Assembly: GCF_003610355.1 (NCBI RefSeq)
Contig: NZ_RAPY01000003.1
Span: 434,001 to 498,000, forward strand
Length of the DNA: 64,000 bases
Source: Sphingobacterium detergens
GTDB lineage: Bacteria > Bacteroidota > Bacteroidia > Sphingobacteriales > Sphingobacteriaceae
Reading direction: 5' to 3'
Shown here: one piece after another, positions 4,651-36,956 of the stretch
Position numbering within the stretch: the first letter of the stretch is position 1
Layout of the letters: each line of letters starts with the position of its first letter
Notes under the pieces: generated by a model
What the model was told of the DNA's origin: nothing
The model's input: the letters and a program-made list of their open reading frames with translations, nothing else
Databases searched by the model: none
Translations under genes and position numbers: made by a program

Positions 4651-5466
4651 TTACTGCAAAGCTATCAATTCTTTCAAAATTAATGTCATCTTAGGTTCCG
4701 CTTTCTCAGCGACAGCGACGATTTCCTGCAAAGACACAGGTTTTAACACATCGTGAAAGCCCTCATCCGTAACAACAGAGATCGCGAACACGGGAAGAGC
4801 CATATGATTGGCAACAATCACCTCTGGTACTGTACTCATGCCGACTACATCCCCACCAATAATTCGCATAAAGCGGTATTCAGCTTTTGTTTCCAGGTTT
4901 GGTCCCTGCGAGGAGACATATACAACTTTTCGTGCTGTAATTCCATGCTTTGTGGCAATTTCAAGAGCTTGTTCAATCATTACCCGATTATACGGTTCAC
5001 TCATATCTGGAAAACGAGGCCCAAATTCAGTCAGGTTTTGCCCACGCAAGGGATTGTCAGGCAAGAGATTGATATGATCTTCAATAATACCTAGATCTCC
5101 ATTCCTGACCTCAGGATTCAGCGATCCCGCTGCATTTGATACAAAGAGCTTTTTGACGCCCAGTACTTTCATGATCCGAATAGGAAAAGTAATCTGCTGC
5201 ATATCATAACCCTCATAATAATGAAGCCGTCCCTGCATGGCAACCACATTCTTACCATTTAACTTTCCAAAAATCAATTTACCGGAATGGAATTCTACAG
5301 TAGAGATGGGGAAATTAGGAATATTGGAATACATCAGCTGATATTCGATCTCTATCTCATCAACCAATTTACCTAAGCCAGTACCTAGGATGATACCGAA
5401 TTCTGGAGTAAAATCTCCAATTTTTCTACGGATAAATTCCGTAGTCTCATTTATGCTATGATACAT
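4651..5466 (-). CDS. punA: purine nucleoside phosphorylase (trimeric PNP)
   Basis: 271 aa, the normal length for trimeric PNPs that cleave inosine or guanosine with phosphate to a base and ribose-1-P in the cytoplasm. Visible family motifs: the GTGLG phosphate loop near residue 30, HSGKL and GRLHYYEGY, SNAAGSLN with a following GDLGIIEDHINL, GPNLETKAEYR, GMSTVPEVIVANH (purine/ribose site) and VTDEGF near the C terminus. It sits between the symporter and porin genes on the same strand. A hairpin fills most of the short leader up to the start codon. Its place beside the amino-sugar genes may be coincidental. The gene symbol is by family; the enzyme assignment is very secure. Confidence 0.95.
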   Translation of the reverse strand: MYHSINETTEFIRRKIGDFTPEFGIILGTGLGKLVDEIEIEYQLMYSNIPNFPISTVEFHSGKLIFGKLNGKNVVAMQGRLHYYEGYDMQQITFPIRIMKVLGVKKLFVSNAAGSLNPEVRNGDLGIIEDHINLLPDNPLRGQNLTEFGPRFPDMSEPYNRVMIEQALEIATKHGITARKVVYVSSQGPNLETKAEYRFMRIIGGDVVGMSTVPEVIVANHMALPVFAISVVTDEGFHDVLKPVSLQEIVAVAEKAEPKMTLILKELIALQ

Positions 5467-5535: not shown

Positions 5536-7026
5536 TTAGTTATGCGAAAGCGCCTTTTCACTCGCCTTGCCAGGAGAACTGACCAAAAGCATCAAGAAAG
5601 TGATAAAACCATTGATGATAATCAGGTCCAGCCCGATCACATATGGCGTATAAACCTCAATCACATAAGTTTTCAGTAAATACAATATAGTTGGTGAAAG
5701 CACACAGATATAAGGCACCGCTTTGTCCCGAACAGCAGATTTTGTGAAGATTCCAAAAACAAACAATCCCAGCAATGGACCATAGGTGTAACTCGCTGCC
5801 GTAAATATCGCATTCACTACCGAGTCATCATTGATCAACTTAAATACGAGTATCACCAATAGCATCACAATCGAAAAACCGAAGTGTACATAATTACGTT
5901 TTTTGACAAGAGCGGGATCATTTGGATTTTCCTTTTTATTGAAGTTCAGGAAATCCACACAGAACGAAGTTGTCAATGCTGTAAGTGCACTATCGGTTGT
6001 TGCAAATGTAGCCGCTGTCAGCCCCATCATAAAGATGATTGCCGGAACGATAGCCAGGTGATTCAATGCAATCTCTGGGTAGAGGTAGTCGCGTGTCGCC
6101 AGTTGTGACACGTCAATACCGTTTTTGGCTGCATAGATATATAACAGGGCGCCCACTGCCAAAAAGAAAATATTGATCACCACAAATACACTTGTGAATG
6201 TAATCATATTTTTTTGCGCTTCTTTGATCGTTCCCATTGACAGGTTCTTTTGCATCAGGTCCTGATCAAGTCCCGTCATGGCAATAGTCACAAAAATTCC
6301 ACCCAAGAATTGTTTCCAAAAATTTGCTTTACTGCCAACAAAGTCATCCCAAAAGAAGATTTTGGAATAGCTGCTTTCTTTGACTGCCTCAAAGGTATCT
6401 ACTATTCCAAAATCCAAGCCCTTAGCCATAAAATAGATCGAAAGGATAACGGCTGTTACTAAAAAGGTAGTCTGTAGGGTATCTGTTACAATGATGGTTT
6501 TTAATCCTCCTTTATTCGTATATAGCCAGATAAGCACCAGACAGATCACTACCGTGATCGCGAAAGGCACATTCCAGGCATCAAAAATAAAATGCTGCAG
6601 GACAATTGCAACCAGGTATAAACGAAAGGCTGAACCAATGGTACGGGAAATCAGAAAAATAGCGGCACCGGTTTTATAGGTTGTGTGCCCAAAACGTTCT
6701 TCCAGATAGGTGTAGATGGAGGTCAGGTTCATCCGGTAGTAAAGCGGAAGCAATACATAAGCGATGATAATGAAGCCAACAGCATTCCCTAGCACAAATT
6801 GAAAATAGCTAAATTCCGAAGCGCCAACAGCACCGGGAACAGAAATAAAAGTTACACCGGAAAGCGCTGTACCGATCATCCCGAAAGCGACCATATACCA
6901 TTTCGAATTTCGGTTAGCGACAAAGAAGGTAGAGTTGTCGGAAGATCCTTTTGAAGTGAAGTGCGCTACTGCGAGTAAGACCGCAAAATAGATCACAATA
7001 AAGGATAATAATATAACTGGTGACAT
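5536..7026 (-). CDS. sodium:solute symporter (SSS family), candidate amino-sugar importer
   Basis: 496 aa made of about 13 hydrophobic segments, beginning with an N-out hydrophobic helix. The SSS hallmarks are visible: the unwound first-core-helix region GMIGTALSGVTFISVPGAVG (residues about 50-70), the YRMNLTSIYTYLEERFG segment after TM3, and a later TM with GLTAATFATTDSALTALTTSF that carries Na+-site Ser/Thr residues. It lies 37 nt downstream of murQ on the same strand, and Tannerella forsythia is known to have a transporter gene next to its MurNAc kinase and etherase genes. I therefore infer uptake of MurNAc or a related sugar across the inner membrane. The family is certain; the substrate is inferred from neighbours. 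Confidence 0.85.
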   Translation of the reverse strand: MSPVILLSFIVIYFAVLLAVAHFTSKGSSDNSTFFVANRNSKWYMVAFGMIGTALSGVTFISVPGAVGASEFSYFQFVLGNAVGFIIIAYVLLPLYYRMNLTSIYTYLEERFGHTTYKTGAAIFLISRTIGSAFRLYLVAIVLQHFIFDAWNVPFAITVVICLVLIWLYTNKGGLKTIIVTDTLQTTFLVTAVILSIYFMAKGLDFGIVDTFEAVKESSYSKIFFWDDFVGSKANFWKQFLGGIFVTIAMTGLDQDLMQKNLSMGTIKEAQKNMITFTSVFVVINIFFLAVGALLYIYAAKNGIDVSQLATRDYLYPEIALNHLAIVPAIIFMMGLTAATFATTDSALTALTTSFCVDFLNFNKKENPNDPALVKKRNYVHFGFSIVMLLVILVFKLINDDSVVNAIFTAASYTYGPLLGLFVFGIFTKSAVRDKAVPYICVLSPTILYLLKTYVIEVYTPYVIGLDLIIINGFITFLMLLVSSPGKASEKALSHN

Positions 7027-7063: not shown

Positions 7064-7876
7064 TTAATGTGTCGCCTGGTAGGCTTCGATCGCTTGCCTT
7101 ACATTGCCAAATTGTTCCAACAAAGCTGCTGCATCCTCTTCAGTTGCCCCAGTCTGATCCATAATAATGCGCACACCCCGGCCGACCAATTTATGATTTG
7201 ACAATTGCATGTCAACCATTTTATTCCCCTTAACTCGGCCCAGCTGAATCATTACTGCGGTACTGAACATATTTAATACAAGCTTTTGTGCTGTACCAGA
7301 CTTCATACGAGTAGACCCGGTCACAAATTCTGGCCCTACAATGACCTCAACAGGATATTGTGCAATTTCAGCAATCGGAGAACCGCCATTACAAACGATA
7401 CAACCTGTTATCAGCCCTTTTTCATTTGCAGTCTTCAAGCCACCAATGACGTAAGGCGTAGTACCCGAAGCGGCAATACCGATCACGACATCATTCTCAT
7501 CAATATCATAAGCTTCCATATCCTTCCAGGCCTGCTCCAGATCATCCTCAGCAAATTCCACAGCCTTACGGATCGCGGTATCCCCACCAGCAATTAACCC
7601 AATGATCCACTCAAATGGCACACCATAAGTCGGAGGCAATTCAGATGCATCTAAAACCCCCAGTCGACCACTTGTACCAGCTCCGATATAAAATGTCCGA
7701 CCACCAGCCTTCATTTTCTCTACCGTAACCTTAACCAATGCTTCGATCTGAGGAATAGACCTTTCAACAGCTAGTGGCACAGATTTATCCTCGTTATTGA
7801 TATTAGTCAATAACTCATGTACAGACATCTTGTCCAAATCCTGATAATTCGAATCTTTCTCCGTTGTATTAACCAT
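7064..7876 (-). CDS. murQ: N-acetylmuramic acid 6-phosphate etherase
   Basis: 270 aa of a SIS-fold enzyme that cleaves the lactyl ether of MurNAc-6-P to give GlcNAc-6-P and D-lactate in the cytoplasm. The signature GAGTSGRLGVLDASELPPTY spans residues 66-85, with Glu79 matching the catalytic Glu83 of E. coli MurQ. AVEFAEDD near residue 106 matches the second catalytic Glu region, and GPEFVTGSTRMKSGTAQK is the C-terminal SIS signature. It is slightly shorter than the usual 298-305 aa because the C-terminal helical tail is reduced. It is 21 nt downstream of the deacetylase gene and 37 nt upstream of the symporter gene, so an operon is likely. This is the gene that marks the locus as muramic-acid related. 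Confidence 0.96.
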   Translation of the reverse strand: MVNTTEKDSNYQDLDKMSVHELLTNINNEDKSVPLAVERSIPQIEALVKVTVEKMKAGGRTFYIGAGTSGRLGVLDASELPPTYGVPFEWIIGLIAGGDTAIRKAVEFAEDDLEQAWKDMEAYDIDENDVVIGIAASGTTPYVIGGLKTANEKGLITGCIVCNGGSPIAEIAQYPVEVIVGPEFVTGSTRMKSGTAQKLVLNMFSTAVMIQLGRVKGNKMVDMQLSNHKLVGRGVRIIMDQTGATEEDAAALLEQFGNVRQAIEAYQATH

Positions 7877-7897: not shown

Positions 7898-8542
7898 TTA
7901 ATTCAATAAACTAGGGATATCCACGATTTGATAACCCTTCTTTTTTAATATCTTAATTATATCGTCCAAATAACGATATAATTTATCTTTCCGTCTGTCA
8001 TCCGTCCCCATATGGATTAGTACCATAAAACCATTCAGGCCAGATTTCGCTTCATAAGACCAAAGGCCTTCCAAAATTGCGGCAGAAGACAGATAACGTT
8101 TCCCCATTTCGGGATACGTGTAATCTGCAGCGGTCCGTATTCCGGGTGTATAATTGATTGAAGACAACCCTACTTCTTCTGCCCACGCTACCGTCTGGCT
8201 ATTATACCATTCATAAGAAGGAATATAATAGTGTAGCTTGCTTGTATCCACCCCCGAAAGCGCCAATTCAATCCGATTAGCCTTCAAATCCCGCAGGAAC
8301 GAATCCCGGCTGATCAGCAAATTATCCCGGCTCCCCCAGTCACTGATCAGGAGATGCTTATCTGAATGTCCTGATACCAAATGTCCGTCTTTCAACATCT
8401 GCCGGATATAAGGCTTGAAACTTGCATTCCGCAGATAATCTCCTGTTAAGAAAAAATTCCCCTTCACATGATGATGCGTCAAACTTTTCAAAACCACCGC
8501 TGTTCCTTCTGACAAATCATGCCCTGTAAAAAGCAAGGCCAT
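7898..8542 (-). CDS. polysaccharide deacetylase-like (NodB-fold) protein, N terminus probably supplied by frameshift
   Basis: 214 aa from the only ATG in frame. Core motifs: LFTGHDLSEG (residues 4-13) at the place of the NodB TFDDG motif, HSDKH (His59, His63), the metal-binding H-S/T-x2-H motif, PSYEWYN, and HMGTDDRRKDK near the end. The catalytic first Asp of TFDDG is not retained in standard form. There is no signal peptide, though the substrate should be periplasmic. The open frame continues upstream of the ATG for 18 codons, encoding a plausible FGAVVRGDSTTKK lead-in, back to the last codon of the GH9 gene. See the slippery site at 8596-8602. Alternatives are a truncated gene or a sequencing indel. 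It lies 21 nt before murQ. Confidence 0.8.
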   Translation of the reverse strand: MALLFTGHDLSEGTAVVLKSLTHHHVKGNFFLTGDYLRNASFKPYIRQMLKDGHLVSGHSDKHLLISDWGSRDNLLISRDSFLRDLKANRIELALSGVDTSKLHYYIPSYEWYNSQTVAWAEEVGLSSINYTPGIRTAADYTYPEMGKRYLSSAAILEGLWSYEAKSGLNGFMVLIHMGTDDRRKDKLYRYLDDIIKILKKKGYQIVDIPSLLN

Positions 8543-8592
8543 TTTTTTTGTTGTCGAATCGCCACGGACAACAGCACCAAAGACATCCCTGA

Positions 8593-10419
8593 TTACTTTT
8601 TTCCAACAGGCTCCTCCAATGCCTTTCCTTCTTTAGCCGCTAGCAAGTAGATCAATGAAGCTGTTCCATCCATGGTGGGTTCATTGGTACTGTAGTCGCC
8701 ATAATCATCATGGTAGACAGCCAGATCACTCTGAAAGTCCGCATAGCTATCAGGGTTGTTTAGTTTAATACCGATCAAATTACGGTAGGTAGAGGCCATT
8801 ATTGGACCATCTACCAAGCCACCATCAATCGGATGTTTACCCAAATAGGTAAAAGCAGAATGTGGATCAACTGGTGTATCGCCCCAAGATGGGAGACCAT
8901 AGACCATACTTGTTCCCCATGGATTGGCACCAAAGAGCCAATCGAAATTTGCTTGCTCCAGTTCGTCAAACCGATTATCCCCTGTCAGCTCTTTATACCA
9001 AAGGCATTGCATTGCGAAAGAAGCCGTTAGATTGTTACTGCACCAGATAAAAGGAACTCCTCTTAAAAATGCATTTTGCTCCGCACGTTTATTGACCTCT
9101 TCAATACCTTGTCTATAATATGAAACAATCTCCTCGCGATCCTGTCCTTTCAATTTTTTTGCCAATTCATAATGTCCCAAGTTGATAAAAGGATACCACT
9201 GATAATGTGCAGCAGTATCTGTTATCATCCAGGGTGTTACTTTTTCTTGTCTGGCATACTGCATAGCTTCTTCGGCAAACTTGTTTTTCTTTGTTACCGA
9301 AAGTCCCATTGCCGCTGCCAGCTGCATATCATCCACCCAATTGTCTTCGGCATAGATATAAGGCGATTTGACCGAAACCGTCTGTGTCACCCCGGGCTTT
9401 ATATTTGCATACGCATAGGCTGTCTCCGCTTTCTGTGACAGCAATTTTGCATATTTTTTATCCTCTTTTCCAAAAAGCACAGATCCCAAACGGAAAGCAC
9501 TGCTAAATTTCCCCGCTGTAGAACTTGTTCCGGTGGTGTTATTCATAAACTTTCCCCTTTGTTGCGGCTCGCCATCTATGAAATACACTGGGCGTTCAAA
9601 TCCACGACCATAATAAGGATCCTCCTTGGGCATGCGCATACTTGCATGATCTCGGTCGTCCGCAATCTGATTATACATCTGATTTGCTTTGGGATGCATC
9701 TTCAACAACCAGTCCAGTCCCCATTTAGCTTCATCCAATATATCAGCACGGCCGTTCTTCCCATCCAGACCATTTGCCTGCTTTTGATCTGCAAACACCT
9801 TGGGAAAGTCCCGATAAGCCGCCAGCAGATGAAATGTTGCATTTGCCGAAGTCGTCGCGTATTGCAAATAATCAGAAGCATCATGCCAACCTCCGCCAGC
9901 ATCAATATGCGAGCTATCCGCTACACCCACTTTACCTGCATACAATGTAAAGCCATCATGTGTATGACAACTGTCCTTTAAAAAAGGATTGAACAATGTC
10001 CGTTGTTGACGCATATACCGCAATACAAAGTCCGCGGCACCCTTATAGACATCGCGGGCTATCCTAAAATGAGGAGATTTGATTTCTCCCACCTGGATAA
10101 AAAACCTTCCCGTATCCTGTAAAGCCGAGAAATCGAATCGAAAACTCTGCACAAAAGGGCCGTAATCACCATAATCCTTCCCTACGGGATGAGCATACAC
10201 TGTCTTACCTGTCTTTGCATCTTTAATCTCAAAAGAACGAAGCTGCCTGATTGATTTCCCGCCCCATACCGCGACCTTTTTACCTGCCGGAGTATAGCCT
10301 AATTGGTTTATTCGAATCCAAGCATTTTGCTGTGCTTCCGCAAAGTTACAAACAAAACATGCAAAAACAAGCAAAAAAGCTTGACGTAAATTTAAGAAGT
10401 TTAGACATTCTTTTATCAT
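8593..10419 (-). CDS. glycoside hydrolase family 9 enzyme with N-terminal Ig-like (CelD_N) domain
   Basis: 608 aa. A signal peptide ends at about AEA29. Residues 33-120 form the CelD_N-type Ig-like domain (WIRINQLGYTPAGKK..). The GH9 (alpha/alpha)6 barrel follows: GGGWHDASDY at 175-184 carries the two conserved Asp (180, 183), DILDEAKWGLDWLLKMHP follows, then GANPWGTSMVYGLP, and the proton-donor region DYSTNEPTMDG with Glu580. GH9 enzymes cut beta-1,4 glucans, and some act on glucosamine-containing chains; beside murQ and namZ an amino-sugar polymer is more likely than cellulose, but this is inference. The gene ends in GGA AAA AAG TAA, which may allow a -1 shift into the deacetylase frame. 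It begins 42 nt after the phosphoesterase stop. Confidence 0.9.
   Translation of the reverse strand: MIKECLNFLNLRQAFLLVFACFVCNFAEAQQNAWIRINQLGYTPAGKKVAVWGGKSIRQLRSFEIKDAKTGKTVYAHPVGKDYGDYGPFVQSFRFDFSALQDTGRFFIQVGEIKSPHFRIARDVYKGAADFVLRYMRQQRTLFNPFLKDSCHTHDGFTLYAGKVGVADSSHIDAGGGWHDASDYLQYATTSANATFHLLAAYRDFPKVFADQKQANGLDGKNGRADILDEAKWGLDWLLKMHPKANQMYNQIADDRDHASMRMPKEDPYYGRGFERPVYFIDGEPQQRGKFMNNTTGTSSTAGKFSSAFRLGSVLFGKEDKKYAKLLSQKAETAYAYANIKPGVTQTVSVKSPYIYAEDNWVDDMQLAAAMGLSVTKKNKFAEEAMQYARQEKVTPWMITDTAAHYQWYPFINLGHYELAKKLKGQDREEIVSYYRQGIEEVNKRAEQNAFLRGVPFIWCSNNLTASFAMQCLWYKELTGDNRFDELEQANFDWLFGANPWGTSMVYGLPSWGDTPVDPHSAFTYLGKHPIDGGLVDGPIMASTYRNLIGIKLNNPDSYADFQSDLAVYHDDYGDYSTNEPTMDGTASLIYLLAAKEGKALEEPVGKK
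8596..8602 (-). promoter_or_regulatory. candidate -1 ribosomal frameshift site (A-AAA-AAG)
   Basis: The last two sense codons of the GH9 gene, plus the preceding base, read A AAA AAG in the zero frame, directly followed by TAA. This heptamer is the strongest known bacterial slippery sequence (as in E. coli dnaX). A Shine-Dalgarno-like GGAGGAG (8611-8617) sits 8 nt upstream, close to the dnaX spacing. A -1 slip continues as GTA ATC AGG GAT and stays open into the deacetylase ORF (8596 is in phase with 8542). A weak stem GTTGTC/GACAAC lies further downstream. The arrangement is seen; frameshifting is inferred. Confidence 0.5.
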
Positions 10420-10461: not shown

Positions 10462-12318
10462 TTAAAACCTCAAAGAAACTATTTTACCGTCCATCGTGCT
10501 TGCAACAACCTCATTACTACCGTTTACAGCAACAGGATTGAGCATTCCATTGGAAATTTTATATTGCCACATTATATCGCCTGTTTTTGCATCAACAGCC
10601 GAAAGCAAACCCGAATGACTCGGCACAAACACCAATTTGCGATTTGTTTTTATCGCTGATGGAGTCAATTCATAAGGCAATTTTAGTTTTGCTTTCCAAA
10701 TTACATCCATTTTCTCACCTGAAGAAGAAATCCCCAGCAAATCGCCATCCATTGTCTTCACGTAAACCTGTTTTTTATTTACAGCCAGTCCCATAGACTC
10801 CCGCACACGTATGCTGTCTTTCTTTTCTCGCCAGACCACAGCCCCATTCTTTGCATCCAATGCCGTCATAAATCGATCCGGCGCAACAACAAATACGCGA
10901 TTATTTATCCCAACGGGATTGCAGGCAGCAGCCGAAAACATCCGGTTGGCATGACCATTGTTCCATTGCCAGGATAGTTTTCCAGTTTTGGCATCCAATG
11001 CATAAAATCCATTTCCCCAAGAACCGAAGATGATATTACCCAAATAATACGTTGGCAAAGTAGACACAAACCCTTTGACCTGATCAAAACTCCATCTTAA
11101 TTTACCAGTCTTTATATCCAAGGCCCTAAATTTACCATCCGAACCACCAATAAAAGCGACACCATCATGCAGCAGTGGCGAACCCAATACTGCCTTATCT
11201 GTCTGCACCTTCCAGAGAAGTTTTCCATTTTCCGCATTGACAGCATATATAAAGTGATCCGAAGAACCGGCTACAACGATACCCTTCCAAACCGCTGGCG
11301 TGGAGTACACTTTCCCTCCCGTCCTATAAGCCCAAAGTTTTTTACCGGATTTAAGATCCAGCGCAAAGATATCCCCCGCAGTATTGGAGGTAACAACCTT
11401 GTTTTTATAGATTGTCAGTCCTGCACCAATATCGCTAGCATCTTCAAAAGTCCAATTCACATGAACAGCACTTGCATACTTTTCATTGACCGCATAACTC
11501 GGCCGTGGATAAGTCGCAGTTTCGCGGTCATAGTGATGATCAAACAAAGGCACTTCTAACCAAGGTTTTTCTTGTGTACCAATTCCTGGATTACGCTCTT
11601 GATAAGTCGCTTTTCCATCGGCGATGGTTACAATATTATAGCCACCGACAGGTTTATTTGCACGTAGATTGGATCGGCCCATCACACCCGGAATTCCCTC
11701 CCAGTCGTAGGCCTTGTTCGCATGTCCATGTCCGCAGAAGGCCAATTGCACATTACGTGTTTTAACGCGCTTCAATGCATCAAACCAATTGTTCAGGGAG
11801 GAGTCTTGTGGATAATGGTTAATATAAATTAGCGGTGTTTGCCTGTCAGGATTCGCAGCAAAGATGGAATCCATCCACACCAGATTTTCACGTGGTATCT
11901 GTCCGGGACTCATGCGCATATTCGGCCCAGAGTTTGTTCCGATAAATTCATAACCCTTATGTTTAAAGAAAAAAGTCTCCCCACCAAAAACAGTACGAAA
12001 GGTATTGGCTCCATTTTCAGACCAATTCCCATCGTGGTTACCAGGAATGACATACCAGGGCAGCTGCAGGCTATCCAAAATCCGCTTTGCCAATTTCAGT
12101 TCCTGATCAGCCCCAAATTCAGTGATATCTCCTGAGAGAATAACAAAATCGATGTCTTTCAATGTATTAAGATCCTTTACTGTACGTCGCAGATCTTCCT
12201 CCCCTGTTGCACCACCAACGTGTGTATCCGTGACATGGGCAAACTTAAATGACTGCGCAAAGGAAATATTGATAATGCACAATAATGCACTAATAAAGGC
12301 TATAAGCTTCGGTTTCAT
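10462..12318 (-). CDS. secreted metallophosphoesterase fused to a PQQ-type beta-propeller
   Basis: 618 aa from the ATG at 12318; an upstream ATG at 12408 is in frame but would put 30 unrelated residues before the signal peptide (MKPKLIAF..FAQ, cleaved after Ala21). The calcineurin-like phosphoesterase motifs follow in order: DTH (Asp31, His33), SGDITE, PGNHDGNW, NHYP and GHGH. From about residue 320 there are at least six propeller blades of the outer-membrane BamB/PQQ type (WAYRTGGKVYSTPAV, LLWKVQT, LRWSF, LSWQWNNG, IMWQY). The enzyme part would remove phosphate mono- or diesters in the periplasm; the propeller may bind substrate or partner proteins. It is the first gene of the phosphoesterase-GH9-deacetylase-murQ-symporter run and has two copies of the shared operator-like motif directly upstream. 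Confidence 0.85.
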   Translation of the reverse strand: MKPKLIAFISALLCIINISFAQSFKFAHVTDTHVGGATGEEDLRRTVKDLNTLKDIDFVILSGDITEFGADQELKLAKRILDSLQLPWYVIPGNHDGNWSENGANTFRTVFGGETFFFKHKGYEFIGTNSGPNMRMSPGQIPRENLVWMDSIFAANPDRQTPLIYINHYPQDSSLNNWFDALKRVKTRNVQLAFCGHGHANKAYDWEGIPGVMGRSNLRANKPVGGYNIVTIADGKATYQERNPGIGTQEKPWLEVPLFDHHYDRETATYPRPSYAVNEKYASAVHVNWTFEDASDIGAGLTIYKNKVVTSNTAGDIFALDLKSGKKLWAYRTGGKVYSTPAVWKGIVVAGSSDHFIYAVNAENGKLLWKVQTDKAVLGSPLLHDGVAFIGGSDGKFRALDIKTGKLRWSFDQVKGFVSTLPTYYLGNIIFGSWGNGFYALDAKTGKLSWQWNNGHANRMFSAAACNPVGINNRVFVVAPDRFMTALDAKNGAVVWREKKDSIRVRESMGLAVNKKQVYVKTMDGDLLGISSSGEKMDVIWKAKLKLPYELTPSAIKTNRKLVFVPSHSGLLSAVDAKTGDIMWQYKISNGMLNPVAVNGSNEVVASTMDGKIVSLRF

Positions 12319-12339
12319 GGATAAAGTTTTCTTAAAAAT

Positions 12340-12386
12340 AGCGTTTTTATGCGTAAACATAAAATATAAATGCGTTTTTATGCATG
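12340..12386 (-). promoter_or_regulatory. two operator-like sites upstream of the phosphoesterase operon
   Basis: GCGTTTTTATGCG (12341-12353) and ATGCGTTTTTATGCAT (12370-12385) are copies of one AT-rich near-palindrome, starting 30 nt apart and within 70 nt of the start codon. The same motif occurs upstream of namZ and three susC genes. No clear TTG/TAnnTTTG pair is seen here. Confidence 0.6.
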
Positions 12387-12437
12387 ATATTTTTGATACA
12401 ACAAACATATTACCTATTTCTTTTCCAATAGATTTAC

Positions 12438-12489: not shown

Positions 12490-14349
12490 TTACCAGCCCT
12501 TTGTTTGGGTCAGTTTATAACCTTTCGAAGCATATTCATTTATCTGCTCAAGACCAACGGGAGCCATATAGGAGCGATCTGAGAAAGACTCACGGTTTCG
12601 TACGGTTTCGACAAGATAGAAGCCAACCATCTGACTAGAGTTCTTACCATCATAAGTGATGACTTTATTCGTAGCATCCACCACTTTAAGAATTCCCACC
12701 TTCGAAGGATCCAGCAAAGCCGGAATATCTTTCTGAACATCAATCCAAGGACCACGGTAATAATCCTGATTTTTGTCAAAATTCATATAATCCAGTTTTT
12801 TCCAGCGTTTAATATCCAACAGGCGAAGTCCTTCATAAACAAATTCCATGCGGCGTTCGCGGCGGATTTCCCAAGTTAACGGAGACACATCAGCATCTCT
12901 TGCAGGGTCATTTGCGATAGCTCCTATTTGCAATGGCGCTGTTTTCTGCACACCTTTCGATGCAGCTACAGCATCTATAGGACGATTACGTATTGCATTG
13001 ATAGATTTATCAATATCGCCTTGCGTTACAGCCGCCCCTCCAAATCCTTCAGCCAAAATCTGCTTCGCTTCGACGAAATTCAGCACAACCTCCGCTAAAC
13101 GGATAACCGGCGCGTCTGATGTATTCGTCATACCACCCCAGGCTGCCGGATATTTGCCACCGATATAAGTCATAGCCTCCCTTGATGCAAACTTAAATGC
13201 ATAGAACAATGTCGACGAGGAAGTTAATGGCTTCTCATAAAATGAAGCCTCAAAACGAGGATCTCTTGTAACGGCCAAATCTTTAATAGAGAAACTGCTC
13301 GCATTTGCTACAGATGAGTTTTGCCAAGGTTTTCCATCATTACACAGAAACGACTTGACTAGAACAAGGTTGGATGCATTATCCTGACGCTCTGTACCAT
13401 TGCTATATGAACCAACACTGTGCGTTACATTTTTAGTCGCGTCATAAGCACGATACATGATCACTTCCTGATTGGCGCTTAAATCCTCTGATGCAAAAAG
13501 GCTCTTAAAATCACTTGTAAACTTATAAGCTCCAGAATTCATGACGACTTCAGCCGCCTTCTGTGCCAATTCCAAATATTTCTTCGCTCTTTCTTTATCT
13601 ATATTATGATAATATAAATAAGATCCTTCGAACAACATGTAACGGGAAATAAAAGATGCCGCAACATATTTATTCAGGTATTGTTTCCCGTCATTTGTAC
13701 GCATGTTATCCAATACATATTGAAAATCCTCGTACACACGATCCATAACCACACTACGATTATCCCGGTCTTTATACAAAAGATCTGTTTCAGTATCTTT
13801 CAGTTCTTTATCATAATAAGGAACATCACCAAATACCTCTACCAAACGACTATACTCCGAACCTCTGAAAAAACGGGCCACAGCCATCCAATGACGATAG
13901 GTCTCATCATTAATATTGGGTTTGGTCACACGCTCAATGCGGTCAACAAAAATATTTGCCTTTCTAACATAAACAAAATTCCATGTCGGACCTGAATATT
14001 CCCGCAACATTTGCGGGGTCTCCATCAAAGCAATTGTACTTGCATATTCATTCTTGCGGGTAGAAGGAACAGTATTTTCAAAATTATCCTGAATATTTCT
14101 CTTCGTCAAATCGTCAGAAAAATTATAACCTGTTACGGGAGCATAGGCAGTTGCATAACCCGAATTATTCCCTGTAAAAAAATTGGGATAGAATCCATTC
14201 GCATAAAGACGCAAAGCCAGCTCGTTTCCCCAGCTATTTTGATCTTCGATACTCGTTAACTGATCACGATCCAAAACATCTTTATTACAGGAAGACAATA
14301 AAACTGTTGCCCCCAGCGCCAAAAAAGCTATTTTCTTTGTAAGTTTCAT
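12490..14349 (-). CDS. RagB/SusD family nutrient-binding outer-membrane lipoprotein
   Basis: 619 aa. Lipobox LLSSC gives an acylated Cys21. Residues from about 30 show the SusD N-terminal pattern (LDRDQLTSIEDQNSW), TPR-like helices in the middle (EYSRLVEVFGDVPYYDKEL, typical 'GDVPY' SusD motif), and the C-terminal region with RLAEVVLNFVEAK and WEIRRERRMEFVYEGLRLLDIKRW, the standard SusD ending. It is the surface lid that binds the glycan for the SusC channel encoded 11 nt upstream. It is the last gene before a strong terminator. The ligand is not deducible; the position between namZ and the murQ operon suggests muropeptide or wall glycan. Confidence 0.95.
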   Translation of the reverse strand: MKLTKKIAFLALGATVLLSSCNKDVLDRDQLTSIEDQNSWGNELALRLYANGFYPNFFTGNNSGYATAYAPVTGYNFSDDLTKRNIQDNFENTVPSTRKNEYASTIALMETPQMLREYSGPTWNFVYVRKANIFVDRIERVTKPNINDETYRHWMAVARFFRGSEYSRLVEVFGDVPYYDKELKDTETDLLYKDRDNRSVVMDRVYEDFQYVLDNMRTNDGKQYLNKYVAASFISRYMLFEGSYLYYHNIDKERAKKYLELAQKAAEVVMNSGAYKFTSDFKSLFASEDLSANQEVIMYRAYDATKNVTHSVGSYSNGTERQDNASNLVLVKSFLCNDGKPWQNSSVANASSFSIKDLAVTRDPRFEASFYEKPLTSSSTLFYAFKFASREAMTYIGGKYPAAWGGMTNTSDAPVIRLAEVVLNFVEAKQILAEGFGGAAVTQGDIDKSINAIRNRPIDAVAASKGVQKTAPLQIGAIANDPARDADVSPLTWEIRRERRMEFVYEGLRLLDIKRWKKLDYMNFDKNQDYYRGPWIDVQKDIPALLDPSKVGILKVVDATNKVITYDGKNSSQMVGFYLVETVRNRESFSDRSYMAPVGLEQINEYASKGYKLTQTKGW

Positions 14350-14360
14350 TTTTGTAAATT

Positions 14361-17300
14361 TTAGAAGTTAACTTGGACACCAAACGAAACCGATTTGAAC
14401 ATTGGTGTACCAACCCCTGTTCTACCCGAGTTATAATTCTTGTCATTGAATATAGAGAAGCCATTGATTGCTTCAGGATCCACAGGTAAGCCTTTCAGTT
14501 TATCAAACGTAAAGAAATTCTCCAAAGAAGTATATATTCTCGCCGTTTTTATATACGCTTTATTTGTCAGAGACGAAGGCAAAGTATACCCCAGCGTAAT
14601 ATTCTTAATACGCATATAAGACATATCCAACAAATAGCGCGATTGTTTTACCATATTATTCGCGTCATTGCTCGCAGCATTGTTATATGCCGCTGGATAG
14701 AAGGCATCTGTATGATCTTTTGTCCAGAAGTTATCCGCAATAGCAGCAGGCATCGCACCGTCCGAAGAGTTATAACCAGGGATAGTCAAGAACCCATTCC
14801 CCCAAAGCTGGCGTTTACCCACACCTTGTAGAAATGCCGAGAAATCAAAACCTTTATAATCAAGCCCGAGACGAAAACCATATTCATAACGTGGAGTTTC
14901 ATTACCGATAATTTCCAAATCACCATGGTCACTTAATGTCTCAGCACCTTTGTCTATCTTACCGTCACCATTTAGATCCACAAATTTCACATCACCGGCC
15001 CCAAAGTTAAACTTACTATCCGTTGAGAATGTATTGTACGCTCCATTTGGGTCAGATAGCTTATTCATATCTTTTCCGTTCACTTTAATTGGCACATAAT
15101 TACCTTTGGAATCATACTCAAAATCAGACGCCTGATACAATCTATCTGTACGATAACCCCAAATTTCACCAACATCTTTACCAACGTAATAATCGGAAAT
15201 CACTTTAGTATCCGTATACTTCAAGATAGTTGATTTGGCATCCGACAATGTTCCACGAACATTGAATCCAAGCCCATTCTCAAAACGGTGATTGAAATCC
15301 ATCGCCAACTCCCAACCCTGCGTACGCAATGCACCAAAGTTCCCTTGTGGCGGCGGAGCACCAAAAGTCGCACTGACATTACCACTAGGAACAATCATAT
15401 TTTTTGTATCACGACGGTACCAGTCGAACACCACGCCGAATTTATTTTTGAACATCCGCATATCCAAACCAATATCTGTGGTTTCGATTCGCTGCCAGCC
15501 CAAACTACTTAGTACTGCTGATGGCGTCCCAATATTATAATAACGGCTTCCATCTGCACCCAACCAGCTGATATCACCCGGAATCATCGTCGAAGTATAT
15601 AAACTTGGCAGCACCGTCTGATCACCGATAGAACCCCAAGACCCCCTAAGCTTCAATTGATTCAATGTCGGTTTTGCCCATTCCATAAAACTTTCCTCGG
15701 ATGCTACCCAGCCTGCAGAGAAGGACGGAAACCATTGCCATTTTAGGTTTTTTGGAAATTTCGACGAGCCATCATAACGGATATTAGCCTCAAATAGGTA
15801 CTTATTTTTGTACGCATAGTTTACACGACCAAAATAACCCAGCTGGGCTTCCCACAAAGCATCCCCCTTGGCTTGCTGCGACGATGTATTCACACCAAAT
15901 CCCAACTGCGGATTTTTAATATCAAGCAAATTGAAAGTTTGTGAAGAATTCATATCATAATCCAAGGTTACGCGGTTGATACCTGCCAAAAACTTGAATT
16001 CATGATCATCATTAAGATTCAGATTATACGTTGTGACAGCATTGATCGTATTGTTACGACGGTTGCCCGCTGCACGCAGAAAATGATCTGGATTCGCGCC
16101 ATTCGCTGTATACATATAGTAATTCAGATCATAAGCTGCCGAAGCACCCAGCGTACCAGCAGGCACGACCTGACCATCTGAATTAACATAAACCGGAGCT
16201 CCGGCCGCATCCTTACGAGCCACACCTGCGATCCAAGAATCTGCAGCGGTAAAACGTGTACCTGGTTGTGTTGTGATTTCTTCTTGATTGGAGAAAGTAT
16301 AATCAAAATCCACCTTCCAGTTTTTCATGATATTTACAGTAGCCCCCAAATTCAAATTCAGATAATTATTTTGGAAACTAGCCGTATTCGCTGAAGAAAC
16401 TTCACTCCATGGACTCCGGATCATCTTACCATTTTCATCGTAACCCATCGGATATAGCGAGCTCCAGCGGTATAAGTACAACCAAGGATCGGCAGTTGTT
16501 GAATTTGTCGTATACGGATACTCCTTTTTGCGGCGTGACACAATTGCCCCACCACGCACAGTCAGGTATTTATTCAATTCCGTAGACAAACGTAAAGCAG
16601 CATTTGTCCGTCTGAATTGATCGTGATCCGTAGGCTTCATCATTCCGGATTGATTCAACAGACCCATGCTTAGATTATAATCCGTTTTTCCCGAAGTACC
16701 AGAGATACTTAGATCATGCTGTGAAGTAGGCGCTGCCTTGCGAATCATATAATCCTGTACGTTATACGTACGGACACCATATTTTTTTGTCGGTTCAGCG
16801 GGATTAACATACCAGTCACGACCATAAACAGTCGGATCGTTAACGCCTATTGTACCACCGTATTTCTCCTTCCATTTGACGGCTAAATCATAACTCTGTC
16901 TATTGACTTTATAGAAAGCTCCGGCTTCAGTTTCACCAATTCTTTCCACCGCCTCAAGTGAATACTTAAGCGCATTCACGTCCCCCATATTATAATCAAC
17001 CGCCGAGTTTTGAAAAGAAAAGTTATTATTGTAGCTAATATTGAAGGTATCTCCCCCTTTAGCACCCTTCTTTGATGTGATCAGTACCACACCAAATGCA
17101 GCTTTCGCACCATAGATAGAGGCTGCTGCCGCATCTTTTAACACAGTAATGGATTCCACGTCGGCCGGATTAACCAATTGAATACTTGGAATCTCCACGT
17201 TATCTAATAAAATCAAGGGATTAGACTGTCCAGCGATCGAGCCTATCTGACCTCTAATTTTCATCACAGGATCAGAACCGACCTCTCCACTCGGTACCAC

Positions 17301-17822
17301 GACAGTCAAACCCGGTGTAGTACCCTGTATACCACGACCGATATCCGCAATCGCACGCCCCTGTAAATTATCTTTGACATTAATTGTCGAAACCGCACCT
17401 GTCAAATTACCTTTCTTTTGTGTACCATAACCGACAACAACAACCTCTTCCAAGGATTGATTATCATCCACCAACGTCACATTAACTGTATTTGACGTAA
17501 CGGTAACATCTTGCGCAACATACCCAATGGATGAAAAACGCAGCTTACTCCCAACAGCAGCCGTAATCTTGAAATGCCCCTGTGCATCGGTTTTAGTAGA
17601 CGCGGTCCCGCCAATGACAGAAACGCTTACTTCTGAGACTGGGCCTTTTCCATCCGTTACAGTACCTTGCACCGTATTTTGAACCGAAGTCTTCGATGAA
17701 GAGCGAAGAAGAGCACTTGTCAAGTTAGCATTGCTCAAAGCGCCCTCTTTCTTTACGAAAGAATAGGATTCAGAAGGAAAACTCAATCCAAGAGCAACAG
17801 AAAATAGTACAAATTTTCTCAT
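14361..17822 (-). CDS. SusC/RagA TonB-dependent outer-membrane transporter
   Basis: 1153 aa, the largest SusC here. After an N-terminal hydrophobic segment there is a carboxypeptidase-regulatory-like domain (about 48-118), then the TonB-box/plug start SLEEVVVVGYGTQKKGNLTG (123-142), plug motifs (LILLDNVEIP, ITVLKDAAAASIYGAKAAFG) and the 22-strand barrel ending in SFGVQVNF. It imports glycan or peptide fragments with the SusD protein encoded right downstream. It lies 71 nt downstream of the namZ stop on the same strand, so the muramidase and this transporter may share a transcript. Direct repeats lie in the short leader. Confidence 0.96.
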   Translation of the reverse strand: MRKFVLFSVALGLSFPSESYSFVKKEGALSNANLTSALLRSSSKTSVQNTVQGTVTDGKGPVSEVSVSVIGGTASTKTDAQGHFKITAAVGSKLRFSSIGYVAQDVTVTSNTVNVTLVDDNQSLEEVVVVGYGTQKKGNLTGAVSTINVKDNLQGRAIADIGRGIQGTTPGLTVVVPSGEVGSDPVMKIRGQIGSIAGQSNPLILLDNVEIPSIQLVNPADVESITVLKDAAAASIYGAKAAFGVVLITSKKGAKGGDTFNISYNNNFSFQNSAVDYNMGDVNALKYSLEAVERIGETEAGAFYKVNRQSYDLAVKWKEKYGGTIGVNDPTVYGRDWYVNPAEPTKKYGVRTYNVQDYMIRKAAPTSQHDLSISGTSGKTDYNLSMGLLNQSGMMKPTDHDQFRRTNAALRLSTELNKYLTVRGGAIVSRRKKEYPYTTNSTTADPWLYLYRWSSLYPMGYDENGKMIRSPWSEVSSANTASFQNNYLNLNLGATVNIMKNWKVDFDYTFSNQEEITTQPGTRFTAADSWIAGVARKDAAGAPVYVNSDGQVVPAGTLGASAAYDLNYYMYTANGANPDHFLRAAGNRRNNTINAVTTYNLNLNDDHEFKFLAGINRVTLDYDMNSSQTFNLLDIKNPQLGFGVNTSSQQAKGDALWEAQLGYFGRVNYAYKNKYLFEANIRYDGSSKFPKNLKWQWFPSFSAGWVASEESFMEWAKPTLNQLKLRGSWGSIGDQTVLPSLYTSTMIPGDISWLGADGSRYYNIGTPSAVLSSLGWQRIETTDIGLDMRMFKNKFGVVFDWYRRDTKNMIVPSGNVSATFGAPPPQGNFGALRTQGWELAMDFNHRFENGLGFNVRGTLSDAKSTILKYTDTKVISDYYVGKDVGEIWGYRTDRLYQASDFEYDSKGNYVPIKVNGKDMNKLSDPNGAYNTFSTDSKFNFGAGDVKFVDLNGDGKIDKGAETLSDHGDLEIIGNETPRYEYGFRLGLDYKGFDFSAFLQGVGKRQLWGNGFLTIPGYNSSDGAMPAAIADNFWTKDHTDAFYPAAYNNAASNDANNMVKQSRYLLDMSYMRIKNITLGYTLPSSLTNKAYIKTARIYTSLENFFTFDKLKGLPVDPEAINGFSIFNDKNYNSGRTGVGTPMFKSVSFGVQVNF

Positions 17823-17892: not shown

Positions 17893-19137
17893 TTATTCAA
17901 AATCGCTATACAACAGGTACTTTTTGCGCATTTGCTTGTAAACCTTCAAATCTGCAGCCCAAGAAGCGCGAATCTGCCCCTCGGACTCTCCTGCTATAAT
18001 TTGTTTGCGCAATTGATCTGTCCCGGCTAGCTTATCAAAAAATTCCGGTCGAGCAAAAAAAGTAGTCTTATCCGGTGTCTTATTATAAAAATCCAGCAAA
18101 TATTTTAGTGTAAATTTCTGTTTATCAGGATCCAGATTACGTAGGTCGACACCATAATTCATAGCCCCCTTTCCCTCTACATGCTTTGACATACCATGAC
18201 GTTCACCCGGAGTAAACGTAAAAGATCCATAAACAGGATTTGTATATCCCAACACCTGAAAAGGCCAGTCTGTACCGCGACCTACCGAAATATCTGTACC
18301 CTCAAACAAACAGAGGGAGAGATATAAGCGTACCGAAAGCTGATTGGGTAAGCTTGGCGATGGAATAACAGGTAGATCATACATCTTAGTATGATCCCAG
18401 TTCTGCACTTTTACAACCTGCACATCAGCCTGACGACCATTCTCCAGCCATCTCTCGCCATTAATCATCTGCGCGAGTTCACCAATGGTCAATCCATGAA
18501 TCATGGCAATTTTATGCCAGGAAACATCTGACTTAAATTTATCATCATGGCGCACGGGCCCATCTACCTGATCTCCGTTTGGATTAGGGCGATCCAAAAC
18601 AATAAGTTTTTTATTATGCTTCGCACATAATTCCATGACACGGTGTAAAGAAGTAATGTACGTATAGAAGCGTGCTCCCACATCCTGTAAGTCAAAAATC
18701 ATCACATCGATGGAATTGACAATCGAATCTTGTTTTTTATTACCGCCGTAAAGAGTAAATAAAGGTAATCCAGTTTTTTGATCAATATCGTTTCCAAATT
18801 TCTCTCCACGCTCAACATTCCCACGAAAACCATGTTCCGGAGCGAAAGCAAACTTCAGATCTACTTTATTTTCAAGCAAAACATCCACTAAATGCTTTTT
18901 ATCGTCCCCTACAATGGAAGTTTGATTCCCCATAATACCAACTTTTTTGCCTTTTAGTTGCGGCAAATACAGCGACAATTGATCCGCCCCAGGAATAATA
19001 GTAGCACCGACACTCCCTTTCACATCATCCATAGCATTCGTTTCGTTCAGGACAACGGTTCTTCGCGCATAACCACAAGAAGCCAGGGAGAGAAGAGAGA
19101 CCACGAAGGTTAATCTTAGTAAGGTATGTTTCATCAT
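17893..19137 (-). CDS. namZ: exo-beta-N-acetylmuramidase NamZ-like (GH171, DUF1343) lipoprotein
   Basis: 414 aa from the double ATG at 19137/19134; the longer in-frame ORF adds 54 residues with no homology-like character ahead of a clear lipoprotein signal (LLSLASC, Cys21). DUF1343 signatures are plain: GIMGNQTSIVGDD, FAPEHGFRGNVERGEKF, GLPLFTLYGG, MIFDLQDVGARFYTYITSLH, VLDRPNPNGDQVDGP and EGTDISVGRGTDWPFQVLG. Bacillus subtilis NamZ removes MurNAc from the non-reducing end of glycan strands and is encoded with murQ, as here. It is likely anchored in the periplasm or on the surface. It is followed by a SusC/SusD pair and preceded by a palindromic operator-like site. The assignment is strong by family; the enzyme specificity is inferred. 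Confidence 0.93.
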   Translation of the reverse strand: MMKHTLLRLTFVVSLLSLASCGYARRTVVLNETNAMDDVKGSVGATIIPGADQLSLYLPQLKGKKVGIMGNQTSIVGDDKKHLVDVLLENKVDLKFAFAPEHGFRGNVERGEKFGNDIDQKTGLPLFTLYGGNKKQDSIVNSIDVMIFDLQDVGARFYTYITSLHRVMELCAKHNKKLIVLDRPNPNGDQVDGPVRHDDKFKSDVSWHKIAMIHGLTIGELAQMINGERWLENGRQADVQVVKVQNWDHTKMYDLPVIPSPSLPNQLSVRLYLSLCLFEGTDISVGRGTDWPFQVLGYTNPVYGSFTFTPGERHGMSKHVEGKGAMNYGVDLRNLDPDKQKFTLKYLLDFYNKTPDKTTFFARPEFFDKLAGTDQLRKQIIAGESEGQIRASWAADLKVYKQMRKKYLLYSDFE

Positions 19138-19154
19138 AAATAGACCATTAGACC

Positions 19155-19179
19155 ATGCATAAAATGCAGTTTTATGCAT
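19155..19179 (-). promoter_or_regulatory. 25-bp near-palindromic operator-like site upstream of namZ
   Basis: Two overlapping motif copies, ATGCATAAAATGCA (19155-19168) and TGCAGTTTTATGCAT (19165-19179), make a 25-bp near-palindrome ending in ATGCAT on both sides, 18 nt upstream of the namZ start. A weaker GCATAATAACGCAC is at 19422-19435. Confidence 0.6.
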
Positions 19180-19215
19180 GAATAATTGAAAATCAGGATA
19201 AAAGTAAGTAGATTT

Positions 19216-19234
19216 TTTCGTTTTATAAACGAAA
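19216..19234. promoter_or_regulatory. perfect inverted repeat in the namZ upstream region
   Basis: TTTCGTTT-TAT-AAACGAAA is an 8-bp perfect inverted repeat about 80 nt upstream of namZ. It is a possible second regulator site. The surrounding 19138-19515 stretch holds otherwise only AT-rich sequence, the operator-like sites and a terminator; I see no gene in it. Confidence 0.4.
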
Positions 19235-19460
19235 CAAATTAAAAAACGCAAAATAAAGTAAGTGTTCACTAAGTATTCTACCCAAGCCTCCAAGATCAAA
19301 AAGCCTTATATTAGGCTAAAAAATAAGAAAAAAGACATTTTCACAAACAAAAAACACCTCAAATATATTTTTAAAAAAAACACACGCATTAAACAGGCCA
19401 TAAAAAAACACTCACAATAAAGCATAATAACGCACTCCTTTATCCTAACCTCACCCCAAT

Positions 19461-36368: not shown

Positions 36369-36410
36369 AAAAATAGCGGGCTATCACAACAAGATAGCCC
36401 GCTATTTTTT
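36367..36410. terminator. bidirectional terminator between SusD (+) and thioesterase (-)
   Basis: The stem AAAAAATAGCGGGCTATC / GATAGCCCGCTATTTTTT has T-runs on both strands. Its right arm overlaps the last codons of the thioesterase gene (stop at 36402). Confidence 0.9.
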
Positions 36411-36956
36411 TAATGCAATCTTGACATCATAATGCGCCCTGATATAAGCCTGCTGCTCTAGGGAGTCCCGCTCCAGATCATGAATCGCACGATCACGTTC
36501 TTTATCAACCTCCATCTTTACCACACAGCGATAAAATCGAAACACGTCTTTCTCATTCTCTAAAATCAACCGAGGCACCCGCGCAGGTTTACCCGTTTCA
36601 TCTTTAGCGACCATGGTAAAATAAGAGGAATTGCAATGTTTTGTTTCACCCGTTTGGATGTTCATCGCCTCCACCCGAATCCCCACCTCCATAGACGAAT
36701 TGCCCACGTAATTAACTGAAGCGATCAAGGTCACCAGCTCCCCCACCTCAATCGGCTTCAAAAAATCAACCTTACCAACAGAAGCCGTCACACAATAATG
36801 TGCCGAAAACTTAGAGGCCACCGCAAAGGCTATTTGATCCATCAAGGACAAAATATAGCCTCCATGGATCTTTCCGCCAAAATTGGCATTGGATGGTAAC
36901 ATCAACTGTGAAATTCGGATCACCGAATCACTAACGGTTTTATATATCTCTTCCAT
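36402..36956 (-). CDS. acyl-CoA thioesterase (hotdog fold)
   Basis: 184 aa. The hotdog motif GGKIHGGYILSLMDQIAFAVA (split around residues 26-46, with the catalytic Asp in LMDQ) and the following SVGKVDFLKPIEVGELVTL match cytosolic acyl-CoA thioesterases of the YciA/BACH type. A C-terminal acidic/basic helix (VDKERDRAIHDLERDS) extends it. There is no signal peptide. It is a single gene bounded by terminators and has no evident link to the glycan genes. Confidence 0.9.
   Translation of the reverse strand: MEEIYKTVSDSVIRISQLMLPSNANFGGKIHGGYILSLMDQIAFAVASKFSAHYCVTASVGKVDFLKPIEVGELVTLIASVNYVGNSSMEVGIRVEAMNIQTGETKHCNSSYFTMVAKDETGKPARVPRLILENEKDVFRFYRCVVKMEVDKERDRAIHDLERDSLEQQAYIRAHYDVKIALKK

Follow-up and report, generated by a model that had tools for sequence, protein, structure and literature searches.

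How does Sphingobacterium detergens make a deacetylase domain whose reading frame opens, with no start codon, inside the end of a gene for a GH9 glycoside hydrolase? The locus lies on contig NZ_RAPY01000003.1 (assembly GCF_003610355.1), positions 434,001 to 498,000; "the window" below means this whole stretch of 64,000 nucleotides. On its minus strand the GH9 open reading frame (ORF) ends GGA AAA AAG TAA, with the heptamer A AAA AAG in zero phase and the Shine-Dalgarno (SD)-like sequence GGAGGAG 8 nt upstream of it, all within 8593..8617. The -1 frame continues GTA ATC AGG GAT ... for 18 codons to an ATG at 8542 and on through a CE4 (NodB-type polysaccharide deacetylase) domain that ends at 7898. 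According to the original prediction, a dnaX-like -1 frameshift joins the two; it described this anatomy correctly, and the comparison of orthologues given here largely supports the frameshift itself.

A single gene that in many Bacteroidota yields both a short and a longer, two-domain secreted enzyme appears to be the answer. For loci which, like the window, have six A followed by G (A6G loci), we put the probability at about 0.88 that programmed -1 ribosomal frameshifting makes GH9 alone together with a secreted GH9-CE4 protein. A ribosome translating GH9 would reach A AAA AAG with the stop codon next; pairing of GGAGGAG with the anti-SD of 16S rRNA (plus, in a Pedobacter group, a downstream hairpin) would strain it, and the lysyl-tRNAs would shift back by one base and pair again. 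Without slippage the ribosome would terminate at once, giving secreted GH9; with it, translation would continue through CE4, giving a secreted GH9-CE4 protein of 840 aa (608 + 232 aa from the sequence, in line with the size of about 840 aa first proposed). We infer that ribosomes slip often enough to be useful and that the ratio of GH9 to GH9-CE4 matters or is selected. The evidence comes from the anatomy of the locus, from its conservation, and from selection acting on the -1 frame as well as on the signal codons.

Both parts of the proposed protein are recognised by Pfam, the GH9 of the window with 226.5 bits for Glyco_hydro_9 (cut-off 27.7) and its CE4 with 33.3 bits for Polysacc_deac_1 (cut-off 23.1). 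The CE4 frame is open from 8632, and from the upstream stop to the ATG at 8542 no ATG, GTG or TTG was found in it, as had been claimed; a minor correction is that this ATG is not conserved as a start, GTG or other codons standing there in close relatives. The deacetylase has no signal peptide of its own in the window, again as noted originally. With neither a start codon upstream of the CE4 core nor such a signal, the frameshift is the only evident route to its synthesis and export. Zero-phase A AAA AAR heptamers number 18 in the window's 38 ORFs of at least 150 aa, and only the one in GH9 opens a long -1 frame (234 codons, versus 3-63 for the rest). The genome's own 16S tail carries an intact CCTCC, and it has four tRNA-Lys(UUU) genes; the tRNA search had 68 family matches, of which those of at least 80 bases outside the fetched loci were left unscanned because tRNA-Lys is shorter.

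The signal and the -1 frame in related loci

Within the genus, 62 of 93 genomes have a CE4 match at E up to 1e-20, and 61 of these could be classified (G112, a partial match, was left out): 43 are split, all at -1 (29 A6G and 14 with a run of ten A, or A10), and 18 are plain fusions. The family adds 67 genomes outside the genus (109 of 301 match in all). The 39 loci sampled from these over-represent split genes, because every locus with a short CE4 frame was taken (25), along with 14 in-frame ones; among the 25, a split with a zero-phase heptamer is present in 23, L118 has no GH9 match and L146 is partial. In the class, matches come from 19 of 395 genomes. Named genomes were scanned as well, and the best 80 of 544 relatives gave 34 split, 29 in frame, 15 without an upstream GH9 and 2 scored otherwise, and all 15 distinct Pontibacter loci are A6G. 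Identical sequences put names to G029 (Sphingobacterium mizutaii), G158 (Parapedobacter composti), G134 (Arcticibacter svalbardensis), G187 (Daejeonella oryzae), G151 (Olivibacter sitiensis) and G211 (Pedobacter ureilyticus).

Counting identical CE4 starts once, there are 168 distinct loci: 86 have the split at -1, 61 are in frame, 19 lack an upstream GH9 and 2 have separate genes. In 85 of the 86 a zero-phase A AAA AAG or A AAA AAA lies within the stretch where both frames are open. The odd one, L146, with only a partial CE4, shows no A AAA AAR heptamer across its 442-nt overlap and was placed in neither run class. The 85 divide into 66 A6G loci (the run is of exactly six A in 64 and of seven in 2), spanning Sphingobacterium, Pontibacter, Parapedobacter, Pedobacter and others, and 19 others, of which 18 have runs of nine or ten A (A9-A10) and one has A AAA AAA before TAA. 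The proposed alignment of orthologues thus finds both the heptamer with its -1 phase conserved and in-frame fusions in relatives. A +1 shift, which none of the 86 split loci requires, was rejected; L231 and L279, scored as +1 or separate, have an N-terminal signal of their own by eye.

The SD-like element goes with the A6G heptamer. GGAG or GAGG occurs within 25 nt upstream in 66/66 A6G loci, mostly at a spacing of 8 nt (30 loci) or 10 nt (17), and the energy of anti-SD pairing directly upstream has a mean of -10.1 kcal/mol, compared with -2.8 in frame-matched windows of those GH9 genes. Taken as an element that at most 2% of frame-matched windows equal, a strong one is present in 61/66 A6G loci and in only 2/19 of the other run loci. 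A fixed stretch with a cut at -8 kcal/mol gives 63/66 A6G, 2/19 A-run and 11/61 in-frame loci, and a cut at -9 kcal/mol gives 61/66, 2/19 and 10/61, the counts varying with the energy cut chosen. As a rule, Bacteroidota ribosomes make no use of SD sequences at initiation (PMC8710568), which had raised the worry that the stimulator may not work in this phylum; that worry is eased by the intact CCTCC, by the association just described and by a report that every one of the Sphingobacteriales analysed has a +1 prfB frameshift site containing an SD (PMC8710568).

In the Sphingobacterium A6G clade (n = 28), within which the GH9 tree places no locus of another state, the signal codons are synonymously frozen: the SD codons are GAG in 26 and GGG in 2, then GAG in 28, codon -3 is NNA in 28 (for five amino acids), and AAA and AAG follow in 28 each, while other codons of the same genes are Glu GAA 284 / GAG 261 and Lys AAA 488 / AAG 333; part of this freeze follows from the definition of the A6G class. 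Over a nine-codon window at the slip site the synonymous rate is 0.212, versus 0.435 for the gene. The stop codon abuts the heptamer in 63/66 A6G loci, and the next zero-frame stop comes on average 15.4 codons downstream (immediately in 11/66). Without correction for kinship, the zero-frame stop of the 66 loci is TAA in 41, TAG in 25 and TGA in none, while the CE4 stops of the same loci are TGA in 8/66; avoidance of UGA at the zero-frame stop is a possible reading of these counts.

Protein-level selection reaches the junction in both the GH9 and the CE4 frame. Differences in the linker, from the slip to the CE4 core, fall 130/71/267 on CE4-frame codon positions 1/2/3 (32 disjoint nearest pairs; P 7e-26 with sites taken as independent), a pattern by which selection on the CE4 frame starts directly past the slip site. 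The linker consensus, approximately V..D.[FY]GAI.RGD, is common to split loci and plain fusions, and together with the codon pattern it bears out the earlier remark that the codons before the ATG read like protein. CE4 relatives that are neither fused to GH9 nor -1 behind it show, by eye and with no predictor, a hydrophobic N-terminal signal in 20 of 21 cases (examples are L208, L220, L231, L237, L253 and L276; L118 is the exception). Deacetylases with independent signals, proposed at the outset as evidence against a frameshift, were seen by eye only where CE4 is not -1 behind GH9.

Downstream RNA structure is confined to a small set. In a Pedobacter group of five loci (g37, to which G211 belongs) the linker has 29 codons, compared with 21-22 elsewhere, and a putative hairpin of five to six pairs starts exactly 5 nt past the heptamer; a metagenome-assembled genome (MAG) of Chitinophagaceae, L258, has the same hairpin. 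Over these six, pairing holds in 97.2% of cells, versus at most 58.3% with the partner slid, and two pairs show compensatory change, the structure having been read from these same sequences; of 500 shuffles, 15 reached the covariation score and 47 the count of two-sided changes. A generally conserved downstream structure was rejected, folding outside the Pedobacter group being no greater than in the in-frame controls.

Alternatives to ribosomal slippage

A GH9 tree of 146 loci (FastTree; several branches are long and one join drew a warning) requires 18 changes among the three states, at least 17 between the split and in-frame states, and 9 for A6G alone, with 6 forced by starred branches; split and fused forms interconvert on this tree. 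So many changes are what homopolymer indels would give, and the A10 and A11 sister loci do differ, as expected if the split were an indel, a sequencing error or a decaying gene, at most tolerated through a leaky A run. We give this next to no credence: the split recurs in 86 distinct loci and always at -1, the CE4 frame has a purifying pattern, and 61/66 A6G loci have a strong SD-like element. Sequencing error or a pseudogene was rejected on the 86 split loci, this rival being already largely refuted by the orthologues, and an indel error in this particular assembly, a concern raised earlier, is unlikely because 85 other loci share the split, 84 of them with a fitting heptamer. RNA polymerase might instead slip on the A run, some mRNAs with an extra A then encoding the fusion (programmed transcriptional realignment). 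This fits the 18 of 19 non-A6G run loci with A9-A10, a length class tied to realignment (PMC3711429), where the SD-like element is mostly absent (strong in 2/19) and an A11 sister is in frame; since the run length fits and the element is mostly missing, realignment is the better account of the A9-A10 loci, which probably work in this way. For the A6G loci we think it unlikely. Runs over 7 A, the length associated with realignment, occur in those 18 loci and neither at the junction in the window (six A) nor at those of the 66 A6G loci; six A and then G are kept in 64/66, GGAG or GAGG stands upstream in 66/66, an element without a known role in transcription, and the last Lys in the 28 Sphingobacterium loci is never AAA, which would lengthen the run. 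As a separate observation, L143 (G002), with A11, is a plain fusion, while its sisters L105 (G035) and L106 (G064), with A10, are split, which on the DNA sequence is a one-base switch of decoding mode.

The CE4 domain could also be translated separately, by internal initiation or by reinitiation past the GH9 stop, with the open -1 frame incidental; we hold this to be very improbable. The SD-like element does lie upstream of the junction, the ATG of the window adjoins the core, some GTG, TTG or ATG stands at least 5 codons before the core in 16/65 A6G loci (L230 and L280 were left out, since the short motif on which this count relies is missing from them), and a rare start codon (CTG, ATT, ATC or ATA) is found at SD spacing in 7/66. 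In the CE4 frame 4-15 nt past the element, however, ATG, GTG or TTG occurs in 0/66, on which ground an internal start was rejected and the element looks unlike an initiation site; 49/65 have no such codon at least 5 codons before the core, the codons from slip to core evolve as protein and resemble the plain-fusion linker, and the product would be without the N-terminal signal seen by eye in 20/21 relatives lacking an upstream GH9.

Programmed -1 frameshifting at the A6G loci also has observations that weigh against it. The start codons just counted, in 7/66 and 16/65 loci, are among them. Plain fusions occur in 61 loci, and the split form is therefore dispensable; 11 of these 61 also have a strong anti-SD match near the junction. 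The independent-pairs test of the SD-like element against A6G had only 6 supported pairs (on average 3.5 agree and 0.1 oppose; median p 0.125), too few for significance, and 2.9% of windows are as low in synonymous change as the slip site, which is no extreme outlier. The folding z is below -1.5 in only 2/5 Pedobacter-group loci, and outside that group no consistent downstream structure was found, the mean z being -0.6 in the Sphingobacterium clade versus -0.66 for a similar window of in-frame loci, in shuffles that preserved single-base composition only. The genome of the window also has one tRNA-Lys(CUU) gene, and a tRNA of this kind would, from work on dnaX, reduce slippage at AAG.

Relation to known frameshift systems

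Slippage to -1 is well known from transposons and from a DNA polymerase gene and is rarely seen in ordinary bacterial enzyme genes; in IS3-family transposase genes the shift fuses a second catalytic part encoded in the -1 frame. In Escherichia coli dnaX (tau/gamma) the heptamer is also A AAA AAG and is preceded by an SD-like element, and the hairpin there has a counterpart in one group of loci here, but its shift leads to the shorter product (PMC3711429), while that of the GH9-CE4 gene would lead to the longer and add a whole enzyme domain; a zero-frame stop abutting the heptamer is likewise a feature of the GH9-CE4 gene, unlike dnaX. The IS3-family transposase genes (in IS911, A AAA AAG, SD-like GGAG and a stem-loop) also combine an SD-like element with a -1 heptamer of the same class (PMC4066793). 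Unlike them, the GH9-CE4 gene encodes a chromosomal secreted glycoside hydrolase in a genus-conserved operon, is non-mobile and usually has no stem-loop. The prfB frameshift, known in the same class, Bacteroidia, likewise relies on SD-anti-SD pairing on an elongating ribosome (PMC8710568), and differs in its +1 direction, its autoregulatory role and its slip site. For the A9-A10 loci the comparable case is Thermus dnaX, with realignment at A9 (PMC3711429), though in another gene.

When stimulators are present, A_AAA_AAG ranks in E. coli with the most efficient heptamers, and a survey in that species found synonymous constraint at the site in only 2/56 non-mobile candidate clusters (PMC4066793), so it looks rare for bacterial genes that are chromosomal and non-mobile to have well-conserved -1 frameshifting. 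No earlier report of this gene with frameshifting was found in the open-licence literature, supplementary tables being outside the scope, and a prior listing, for example among the GeneTack clusters, is possible; the excerpts of PMC3711429 and PMC5009743 do not mention the gene, and in that of PMC10465942 NamZ, the product of a neighbouring gene (Table 1), is named in the reference list only.

If the frameshift is real, ordinary ORF calling would give two genes, or a start-less fragment, for what is one fusion. The system offers dozens of natural variants with plain-fusion sisters as natural controls, in a phylum that generally does not use SD sequences at initiation. One can therefore ask directly at what point the anti-SD becomes accessible during elongation in Bacteroidota, and what use a cell has for GH9 both with and without the deacetylase domain. 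A broader and rather speculative view is that the family has solved the junction in at least three ways (SD-driven A6G slippage, to which one group adds a hairpin; at A9-A10, probably slippage by the polymerase; plain fusion), that a domain-adding shift has been kept across several Bacteroidota genera, and that the enzyme ratio might act as a sensor and not a fixed setting. It might follow the speed of termination by release factor 1 (RF1) or the state of lysyl-tRNA, because UAA or UAG abuts the signal in 63/66 loci and UGA in 0/66.

Gene neighbourhood and enzyme function

The features of the junction and the neighbouring genes are listed in Table 1. Context was taken from 20 regions of 18-20 kb, several of which end inside the block; ten are from the genus (4 A6G, 3 A10 and 3 in frame), and the last column gives counts for these ten.

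Table 1. Features of the GH9-CE4 junction and of the surrounding gene block in the window
Feature	Position	Strand	Remarks
GH9 ORF	8593..10419	minus	608 aa; CelD_N + Glyco_hydro_9 (Pfam); signal peptide by eye; zero-frame product
SD-like stimulator GGAGGAG (putative)	8611..8617	minus	8-nt spacer 8603..8610, then heptamer
Slippery heptamer A AAA AAG, zero phase	8596..8602	minus	Sequence and orthologue conservation
Zero-frame stop TAA, abutting heptamer	8593..8595	minus	
-1-frame linker, 18 codons without start codon (VIRDVFGAVVRGDSTTKK)	8543..8596	minus	Resembles plain-fusion linker
CE4 (NodB-type polysaccharide deacetylase) domain, -1 frame, 232 aa	7898..8596	minus	Polysacc_deac_1 (Pfam)
murQ, MurNAc-6-phosphate etherase	7064..7876	minus	10/10 genus regions
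SSS-family sodium/solute symporter	5536..7026	minus	10/10 genus regions
Purine nucleoside phosphorylase	4651..5466	minus	9/10 genus regions
Metallophosphoesterase + PQQ-propeller protein	10462..12408	minus	10/10 genus regions
SusD-like protein	12490..14349	minus	10/10 genus regions
SusC-like TonB-dependent receptor	14361..17822	minus	10/10 genus regions
NamZ exo-beta-N-acetylmuramidase	17893..19299	minus	5/10 genus regions

These genes are present across A6G, A10 and in-frame regions of the genus, and the block is therefore kept whatever the frame state. Outside the genus, NamZ, the PQQ protein, MurQ and the symporter are all retained in Parapedobacter (L290), and some of the block in L291; MurQ, NamZ and the PQQ protein were found in none of eight further regions (L292, five of the Pedobacter group and two at class level), so the gene pair lives elsewhere too. 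The NamZ, SusC/SusD and MurQ neighbours suggest that the GH9/CE4 pair acts on peptidoglycan-derived sugars, with NamZ and MurQ, in Sphingobacterium, pointing to peptidoglycan sugars or MurNAc.

A model of the in-frame fusion G033 (mean predicted local distance difference test score, pLDDT, 82.9) has its best structure matches among GH9 endoglucanases, with GH9 exo-beta-D-glucosaminidases lower down, and its CE4 part matches a peptidoglycan GlcNAc deacetylase and a CE4 pseudoenzyme. The canonical motif 1 of CE4 is TFDD, with a catalytic Asp. Here motif 1 reads F[TS][GA][DH][DE] (23-row alignment; L097, L047 and others), with HSxxH kept, and the CE4 activity is uncertain because of this departure; catalysis may depend on other residues, or the domain may be a module without catalytic function. 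In L272 and L275, MAGs labelled Acidobacteria and Aminicenantes, the CE4 relative, with an N-terminal signal of its own by eye, forms the N-terminal part of a 769-aa ORF.

Elsewhere in the window, a 184-aa ORF at 36402-36956 (minus strand) ends in A AAA AAA abutting its stop, with the -1 frame open for 63 codons and neither GGAG nor GAGG found in the 25 nt upstream of the heptamer. Near the left end, at 2060-2418 on the minus strand, stand four tandem tRNA-Val genes, three with TAC and one with GAC.

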